Shown here piece after piece: positions 3 to 2,711 of a DNA stretch of 64,000 nt; the stretch's first letter is position 1, and every line of letters begins with the position of its first letter. This DNA is from an uncultured Sphingomonas sp. (lineage in GTDB: Bacteria; Pseudomonadota; Alphaproteobacteria; Sphingomonadales; Sphingomonadaceae), in assembly GCF_913774285.1 (NCBI RefSeq), contig NZ_CAJYHX010000019.1:124001-188000 (forward strand), written 5' to 3'. The notes under the pieces are model-generated. The model searched no databases. It was not told where the DNA came from and worked only from the letters and a program-made list of their open reading frames with translations. Made by a program: the position numbers and the translations under genes.

Positions 3-77
3 GTCGACCAGCATATCGGCGACATCCGCGCCGAAGACGTGCCCAAGCTGCTCGCCGCGTTGGAGAAAGCGAAGTGA
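3..77 (+). CDS. C-terminal end of a thiol:disulfide interchange protein (DsbE/CcmG-like), truncated by window edge
   Basis: Open frame reads ...VDQHIGDIRAEDVPKLLAALEKAK* directly before and overlapping a ccmH-like gene; DsbE C-termini have this form. Confidence 0.55.
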   Translation, partial: VDQHIGDIRAEDVPKLLAALEKAK

Positions 78-481
78 AACGGGTGCTGCTGCCGGTGGCG
101 CTGATGGTCGCTGGCGCGGCGCACGCAGACTCGGCTCTGCCGGCCTCGCCGCTCGCCTATACCCAGCTTGCCGACCCCGAGCAGGAGGCCCAAGCCAAGG
201 CGCTGATGGAAACGCTGCGCTGCCTCGTCTGCCAAGGCCAGAGCATCGCCGACAGCGATGCCGACATGGCCGGCGAGATGCGTGCGCTCGTCCGCCAGCG
301 AATCGCCGCGGGCGAGCGGCCCTCGCAGGTCCGCAAATGGCTGATGGAGCGCTATGGCGACTATGTCACCTACGACCCGCCGCTCAGCTGGATCACCGCG
401 CCGCTGTGGATCGCGCCGCTGGTGCTGCTCGCGCTTGGGCTGCTGCTCGCACGGCGCCTGTTCAAGAGGAAGGCGACATGA
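74..481 (+). CDS. ccmH: Cytochrome c-type biogenesis protein CcmH/NrfF family
   Basis: Signal peptide, LRCLVCQGQSIADSDADMA (CxxC) and C-terminal TM helix. Confidence 0.9.
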   Translation: MKRVLLPVALMVAGAAHADSALPASPLAYTQLADPEQEAQAKALMETLRCLVCQGQSIADSDADMAGEMRALVRQRIAAGERPSQVRKWLMERYGDYVTYDPPLSWITAPLWIAPLVLLALGLLLARRLFKRKAT

Positions 482-1131
482 TGGGATGGCTGGTCTTTGG
501 CGGCTTCACCCTGCTTGCAATTGTGCTATTGCTATTCATTCGCTTTCCGTTGCGGTTCTGGACGGTGCCCGCAATGGCGGTGATGCTGGCGGGCGCCGGC
601 TATGCCTGGCAGGGGCAGCCCAGCCTTGCCGACCATCCGGTCGCGGGCGTCGCTGCCGTCCGCGCGCTCGACCCCGATCTGATCGCGGCGCGCGAGGGGC
701 TCTTCGGCCGGTTCAATTTCGATTACAGTTACTTCATGGCCGCTGATGCGATGACGCGGGCGGGCGCGCCGCAGCTCGCCGCGACGGTGATGCTGGGGGC
801 GGTGCGCAAGGCGCCGAACGATCTGGGGCTGTGGTCCGGGCTCGGCCTGGCCCTTTCCGAGCATGACGGCGACCAGCTTTCCCCGGCGGCGCGCTACGCG
901 TTCGACAAGGCCGAGACGCTTGCGCCGAACCACCCCGGTCCGCCCTTCTATCATGGCATCGCGCTAGCCCGGGCCGGTGATCTGGAGGCCGCCCGTCAGG
1001 CTTGGGGCAAGGCGCTCCGCCTCCTCCCGCCAACCGCAAGCTATCGCGACGACATGGTTGGCGTGATGCTGAAGCTCGACCCAGGTCTTGCGGCGGCAGC
1101 GCGATCCGCGAATTCGCAGCCCGCCCGCTAA
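478..1131 (+). CDS. TPR-containing c-type cytochrome biogenesis protein (CcmI/CycH-like)
   Basis: Start ATGATGGGATGG overlaps ccmH stop; N-terminal TM helices, TPR-like repeats, ccm operon context. Confidence 0.75.
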   Translation: MMGWLVFGGFTLLAIVLLLFIRFPLRFWTVPAMAVMLAGAGYAWQGQPSLADHPVAGVAAVRALDPDLIAAREGLFGRFNFDYSYFMAADAMTRAGAPQLAATVMLGAVRKAPNDLGLWSGLGLALSEHDGDQLSPAARYAFDKAETLAPNHPGPPFYHGIALARAGDLEAARQAWGKALRLLPPTASYRDDMVGVMLKLDPGLAAAARSANSQPAR

Positions 1132-1212
1132 TTAGTTGTTACCCCTCTATATTGGAACTGGCATCGCTCGTCGGCGGTGCTTCGAGTTCCAGCGGATACA
1201 GGGGTCCGACTA

Positions 1213-2679
1213 ATGTACATCCAGACCGGCAAGGCCGCCGACTTCATGCAAACCGGCCTAAACGACGCGGATCTTGCCGCATACGCACAGGCCGAAGACA
1301 TGCTGTGGGTCATGCTTGAGGACCTCCTCAAGCCGGATGACCGCCCGGAAATCTGGGCCGCCTTCCCGCAGTTTCTGTCAGCCCTGCCGATGTTCTCGCG
1401 CGTGGTCCGCAACAGCCATGCCAAGGCGGTCGGCGGCGGTGTGCAGCTCGACATACGCGTGTCGATTGCCTTGGAACTGCTGCTGGCGATGTGCGAAGCG
1501 CATGAAGGCCAGTTGGATATTGCGATCTCCCGCCTGACGCGCGTTGTGACACGGCAGAACAACTCGATTCTCGCGCAAGGCGCGCTGTTCCACGTCCATG
1601 GCATGGCCGACCCGCAAAACCCCAAATACAAGCTGGAAGGGCGCTTCTGCGCCAAGCCTTTCCTTGAGCTGCATGTGCTGGAACGCTCCACGCACCAATG
1701 CTGCGCCAGCTGGCTCGACAAGTCCGCTGGCGATCTGAACACCACCGATTGGGAGCAGGTCTGGAATTCGGAGTCGGCGCAGGCCGTCCGCGCCAGCATC
1801 CATGACGGTAGCTACCGGCACTGCAACAAGATGGCTTGCCCGGCGATCCAGTCCGGCAGCCTCCCGACCAAGGAGGCGGCGGTGGAGCACTGGCCGACGC
1901 TGGCCGGCCTGATTACGTCTCTGGAGACCGAGATGCCGGCCGGTCCCGAGGACGTGAACCTGGCCTATGACGCGACGTGCAACCTCTCCTGCCCGAGCTG
2001 CCGGACCCACAAGGTCGCCGCCGACGCGGCTACCCGCGAACGCTATTCGGAAATGCAGGAACGTGCGATCCTGCCGATGCTGCGCGAAGCGAAGTCGGTC
2101 TTCATCACCGGATCGGGCGATCCGTTCGCCAGCAAGAACTTCCGCCAGCTGATGGAGCGGTTGACCCCGGACGCCTATCCGGACCTGCGCTTCCGCATCA
2201 TGACCAACGCGATGCTGTTCACCCCGCGCGAATGGGAGAAATTCCCGGCGCTGCACGCCCGCGTTCAGTCGCTGCAGATCAGCATCGACGGCGCGTCCAA
2301 GCACACCCATGAGCTGCTTCGCCGCGGCGCGCGTTGGGAGGTGATGCAGGAAAATCTGCGCTTCGCCGCGGATCTGCTGGCGCAGGGGCAGGTCGAGGCG
2401 ATGTACCTCAGCTTCACCGTGCAGGTGGACAATTTCCACGAGATGGGGGCGGCGGTCGATCTCGCCGACCAGCTCGGCGTCACCGGGCTCTATTTCGGCA
2501 AGATGACCAACTGGGGCACCTTCTCGCCCGACGAATATGCACAGAAGGCGGTGTTCACCCCCACGCATCCGCAATATCGCGCGTTCCTCGCCGCGATGGC
2601 CGATCCGCGGCTGCGTTCGCCGCGCGTGATCCTCGGCAATCTGGTGGACTATCTGCCCGAGCACGCCCTCGCTGCCTGA
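1213..2679 (+). CDS. Radical SAM protein with N-terminal SPASM-like Cys-rich region
   Basis: [15 protein letters not shown] (CxxxCxxC); upstream [24 protein letters not shown]...[30 protein letters not shown] resembles SPASM. Confidence 0.85.
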
Positions 2680-2683
2680 GCGA

Positions 2684-2711
2684 TCCCGCCCGGGTATATG
2701 CCCGGGCGGGA
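2684..2711. terminator. Bidirectional terminator-like hairpin between convergent radical SAM gene and ald
   Basis: TCCCGCCCGGG-tatatg-CCCGGGCGGGA, perfect 11-bp stem. Confidence 0.75.

Follow-up and report, generated by a model that had tools for sequence, protein, structure and literature searches.

Fold-back leaders that silence read-through RNA are already known as a form of gene control, phage T4 being the best-studied case. Such leaders have been described for the T4 late genes e, soc, and 49, for I-TevI and segB, and for mobE of Aeh1 (PMC3014915, PMC2988022). In the case of T4 e, soc, and I-TevI, the ribosome-binding site (RBS) is hidden in long RNAs, and transcription from a promoter within the 5′ strand produces a short RNA that can be translated; the gene's own -10-type box, TATAAATA, is situated in the DNA of that strand, which the short transcripts lack (PMC3014915, PMC2988022). 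A literature search for chromosomal analogues of such a fold-back insulator returned nothing usable. A fold-back of the IS10/IS50 type inhibits translation of transposase from read-through RNA. Here we describe the leader of a radical SAM gene in a 64,000-nucleotide stretch of DNA from an uncultured Sphingomonas sp., hereafter the window (genome G000).

The nearest named relatives at the locus are Sphingomonas trueperi DSM 7225 (G350) and Sphingomonas sp. S2M10 (G269). The gene order is ccmH, a ccmI-like TPR gene, an 81-nt leader, the radical SAM gene, and a convergent ald gene, and the features are collected in Table 1. The ccmI-like gene has orthologs in 291 of the 295 genomes of the genus and gave no Pfam match; its provisional name rests on its place after ccmH and a weak TPR-type similarity. 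The radical SAM protein P0001 belongs to PF04055, with 44.4 bits against a gathering cut-off of 29.5 and a CxxxCxxC cluster motif that reads CNLSCPSC. Its cysteine-rich N terminus resembles that of N-terminal twitch radical SAM proteins, and the corresponding family NF033640 is its best NCBIfam match, but the score of 89.4 bits is far under the family cut-off of 170 and places P0001 outside that family. ATG 1213 is the favored start because the in-frame alternative, GTG 1177, does not stay in frame in G269 and G231, whose orthologs lack one base just 5′ of the ATG. The inverted repeat downstream of the gene is perfect in the window (CCCGCCCGGG-TATATG-CCCGGGCGGG), and G327 and G023 have GC-rich repeats akin to it at the corresponding position. 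It is possibly a bidirectional terminator, which the terminator scan misses because it has no T-run.

Table 1. Coordinates of the leader features and flanking genes in the window.
Feature	Coordinates	Strand	Remarks
ccmH	74-481		Pfam PF03918, E 2e-38
ccmI/cycH-like TPR gene	481-1131	+	Last upstream gene for cytochrome c maturation; putative source of read-through RNA
Whole fold-back hairpin in read-through RNA	1131-1214	+	RNAfold; z -6.15
Hairpin helices	1131-1138/1207-1214, 1141-1146/1200-1205, 1148-1150/1196-1198, 1152-1159/1185-1192, 1160-1168/1173-1181		
Conserved -10-like element, TCTATATT	1146-1153	+	Hexamer TATATT 1148-1153; inside the hairpin 5′ arm
Predicted transcription start	1160	+	From the -10 position with a 6-nt discriminator; uncertain by about 2 nt
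Inner stem-loop, GGCAUCGC...GCGGUGC	1160-1181	+	Best-conserved helix; mostly retained in long and short transcripts
Putative Shine-Dalgarno sequence, AGGGG	1200-1204	+	8 nt from ATG 1213; blocked in read-through RNA
Radical SAM protein P0001, 488 aa	1213-2679	+	Pfam PF04055, E 2.6e-11
GC-rich inverted repeat, CCCGCCCGGGTATATGCCCGGGCGGG	2686-2711	.	Read from sequence; lies where the radical SAM and ald genes converge

The hairpin is real. The 87-nt leader (1129-1215) has a minimum free energy of -41.2 kcal/mol in RNAfold compared with -22.3 ± 3.1 kcal/mol for its dinucleotide shuffles, none of which (0 of 500) is as low. The leader has a GC content of 52% compared with 68% for the window; 64 GC-matched 87-nt stretches from the window were all less stable, and the proportion that is as stable rises to 11% when all 87-nt stretches are counted regardless of GC. 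The hairpin begins at the ccmI stop codon and fills the interval to ATG 1213. The original prediction had described three complementary segments nesting into a single stem with a 6-nt loop. All three pairs are present and nested as described in the RNAfold structure of 1100-1230, but the stem is longer than was proposed, with an additional outermost helix of AUUAGUUG and CGACUAAU that extends into the start codon, and the loop of the minimum-free-energy fold has 4 nt (1169-1172). No U-run follows the stem, where the sequence is GUCCGACUAAUG, and the terminator scan was negative for an intrinsic terminator. Rfam searches at gathering and relaxed thresholds gave chance matches only and no described riboswitch or thermometer family, and a search of the window genome for further copies of the leader found none, leaving a single copy.

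The AGGGG element is, as had been proposed, the only Shine-Dalgarno (SD)-like stretch before ATG 1213, and it is buried in the hairpin. Opening it costs 12.0 kcal/mol with the upstream strand and 2.5 kcal/mol without it, as in an RNA starting near 1160; when the upstream part is shuffled the cost is 2.9 ± 1.2 kcal/mol, with none of 200 shuffles reaching 12. As computed, RNA initiated upstream thus carries its SD and/or start codon within a stable helix, as in the T4 type of leader, and truncation removes the block, with the low opening cost of the short RNA leaving the SD exposed. When the whole initiation region is scored instead of the 5-nt SD the contrast is smaller (11.9 versus 6.9) and the block less exceptional, with 8 of 100 shuffles as strong as the window. 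For G269 the opening cost is 6.5 versus 2.1 kcal/mol without the upstream strand, and 8 of 200 shuffles are as blocking; for G231 the values are 2.5 and 2.2 kcal/mol, showing no effect of the upstream strand. The longest run kept in all five aligned leaders, GCGGATACAGGG, holds AGGGG and ends in the SD. Two distant paralogs (G192 and G324, loci L074 and L077) are preceded by a CTCC-TAAAATGG...CCATTTTCGGAG-type hairpin whose 5′ arm contains a -10-like box and, beside it, a CTCC that pairs with the SD CGGAG. This layout (CTCC-TAAAAT...CGGAG) is that of the window in a different sequence, and the SD block is matched by 4 of 200 and 6 of 200 shuffles, respectively.

The DNA of the 5′ strand contains a conserved, well placed -10-like box; across the three nearest intact leaders (window, G269, and G231) no invariant runs are longer than TCTATATT and GCGGATACAGGG. 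A YC-TATAAT-like box, to which TCTATATT corresponds, is found 30–66 nt 5′ of the start codon in most homologs of the genus (33–85% protein identity), with the exception of G273a, where the spacing is 146 nt. The box reads CCTATAAT in G273a, G315, G285, G304, G271, G220, G062, and G170, TCTATAAT in G318 and G462, and TCTACAAT, CCTAAAAT, or similar in other homologs. The box was not found upstream of G352 and G273b; in other genera of the family, it was likewise missing ahead of most homologs, G462 being the exception. Of 35 upstream regions, 9 contain the exact sequence CTATAAT, compared with an expectation of 0.16 based on the remaining sequence of these loci, and some of the nine are close relatives of one another. 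The -10-like boxes were chosen by their likeness to TATAAT, and their conservation is therefore partly built in. At seven loci (G273a, G315, G278, G284, G285, G304, and G170) the long ORF on the upstream side runs in the opposite direction, and the box is thus located where the gene's own promoter must be. The hexamer TATATT is identical in the intact genes of the window, G269, and G231, and reads TCTATT, TGTATT, and GATATT in the decayed copies of G350, G327, and G023, with A-11 or T-12 changed in all three; the leaders of G350 and G327 differ from that of the window at only 8 and 11 of 88 columns, respectively. The change to the box in all three decayed copies is suggestive but no proof.

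No -35 hexamer at a spacing of 16–18 nt is present in the window, where a consensus scan finds no sigma-70 promoter, and no TTG was seen at the right spacing in the homologs either, which suggests that an activator or another sigma factor is involved. The RpoH and ECF promoter types were considered for the YC-TATAAT box and set aside, with no matching -35 found. In Zymomonas mobilis, a member of the same order, -10 elements are of the form TANNNN and the commonest discriminator is 6 nt (PMC7566282), and this length together with the -10 position gives the predicted start near 1160. The original prediction had named a transcription start inside the hairpin as one of the results that would refute it. 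Such a start is now predicted from the conserved box in the 5′ arm, and the reading accordingly shifts from a sensor to a block acting on read-through transcripts only. Five paralogs (G011, G258, G192, G324, and G023p; loci L005, L073, L074, L077, and L008) have CCCGGCAA-N-TTGCC-like inverted repeats or half sites ∼40–70 nt before the -10-like box, which could be an activator site.

Among the closest relatives at the ccmI loci of the genus, the gene is intact and preceded by the leader in the window, G269, G231, and G306. It is decayed with a still recognizable leader in G350, where the copy has an in-frame stop and a large deletion, and in G327 and G023, where fragments are all that is left. 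Neither the gene nor the leader hairpin is present in G002, G342, G054, and G215, in which ald follows within about 10 nt of ccmI; since these gene-less relatives have no hairpin, it accompanies the radical SAM gene rather than terminating ccm transcription. The decayed copies (L016/L022, L023, and L025) share one position between ccmI and ald. In the ccmHI tree the intact, decayed, and empty loci are intermingled, which suggests repeated loss of the radical SAM gene. A mobile or viral origin was considered and rejected, as viral contigs and phages contained no relatives and six plasmids only distant ones.

The fold itself is shared to a graded extent. The hairpin z-scores are -6.2 in the window, -3.5 in G350, -3.6 in G327, -2.9 in G269, -2.1 in G231, -0.7 in the decayed G023, and -0.6 in G306, which has no excess folding. 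In an alignment of six sequences 78% of cells pair, compared with 27–44% when the partner is slid, and five pairs have changed on both sides versus a shuffled mean of 2.4, mostly through G231. By helix, 90.7% of cells are paired in the inner, 79% in the middle, and 71% in the outer helix of the six relatives, and one pair of the inner helix has changed on both sides. The arms in G231 pair in another register (GTATCCG/CGGATAC) and do not clearly block the SD. The leaders of distant homologs are short and differ in sequence, and the conservation and covariation across distant homologs expected of a known riboswitch or thermometer were not found. Comparative support is moderate for the inner and middle helices; the outer helix, which blocks the RBS, is supported in close relatives only. 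The proposal of a strong leader hairpin that hides the putative RBS of the gene is supported, and the hairpin travels with the gene in relatives. A few compensatory changes are found in the inner helices, with the outer helix clear in close relatives only. The suggestion of a riboswitch, thermometer, or protein-bound leader is not supported, with no Rfam match and a structure that is not conserved in more distant orthologs.

We consider it somewhat probable that the hairpin is a fold-back insulator that acts on read-through RNA alone, in the manner of T4 e, soc, and I-TevI, and several other explanations were weighed. An intercistronic hairpin on a common ccm-radical SAM mRNA, with no internal promoter, would lower translation of the last gene and set a fixed difference in expression, which ribosomes completing ccmI might relieve. 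The same-strand position of the radical SAM gene 81 nt after ccmI, the contact of the ccmI stop codon with the hairpin, and the strong SD block fit this arrangement, but the -10-like box persists at homologs whose upstream genes are divergent, and its retention or loss follows the integrity of the gene, making this an improbable account. Complementarity that is largely a by-product of a conserved promoter and RBS in a GC-rich genome, without a selected RNA function, we regard as comparably improbable. The decay of the pairing with distance (weak in G231 and absent in G306), the 11% of 87-nt stretches of the window that are as stable, and the identity of the best-conserved blocks, which are the -10-like box and the RBS block, would all be accommodated. 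Against it stand the stability of a leader with 52% GC, far above that of GC-matched or shuffled sequence, the significant folding excess in five relatives, and the compensated pairs in G231.

The strong RBS-sequestering fold and the occasional compensatory change in the middle and inner helices would fit a leader responding to a ligand or protein (riboswitch, thermometer, or protein-bound element). The absence of an Rfam match even at the relaxed threshold, the lack of conserved loop or bulge sequence outside the stems, and the restriction of the structure to close relatives, with its loss by G306, leave this very unlikely. Still slightly less credible is a 3′ end element of the ccm transcript, either a terminator or an RNase barrier, which would account for the position directly after the ccmI stop codon but is at odds with the missing U-run, the negative terminator scan, and the absence of such a hairpin after ccmI in relatives without the radical SAM gene.

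In the fold-back insulator model, polymerase reading through from the ccm genes would make an RNA carrying the 5′ arm (1131-1159), which would pair with the SD and start-codon region and prevent translation of radical SAM protein from that RNA. The gene's own promoter, with its -10 box within the same arm, would start transcription near 1160 and give a transcript that keeps the small inner stem-loop and exposes the SD. As this transcript would lack the blocking strand, translation would follow the gene's own promoter and ignore neighboring transcription. Three steps of the model are inferred: promoter activity of the box, the occurrence of read-through, and selection for the block. A wider and rather doubtful extension would make promoter and insulator a portable cassette of the radical SAM family, in which a pyrimidine-rich sequence by the -10 box would complement the gene's own SD and silence read-through wherever the gene lands. 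The layout in G192 and G324 would then reflect independent or long-kept selection in cellular genes.

If the insulator model is correct, a phage-type device against neighboring transcription works on an ordinary bacterial chromosome, the gene so insulated is that of an orphan enzyme that is frequently lost, and its expression from ccm read-through is unwanted. The conserved promoter box would then provide a handle on the regulator and thus on the condition in which the radical SAM enzyme is needed. Like the IS10/IS50 fold-back, the window hairpin would insulate a gene from transcription entering from outside, but there is no mobile element or transposase at this locus, and the leader is present in one copy in the genome. 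The T4 systems concern phage genes with mapped starts whose timing is controlled by a phage sigma factor, whereas the window has a chromosomal gene with a predicted start. As in the T4 fold-back leaders, the hairpin of the window is predicted to hide the RBS in upstream-initiated RNA; the -10-like box in its 5′ strand is a candidate counterpart of the T4 box.
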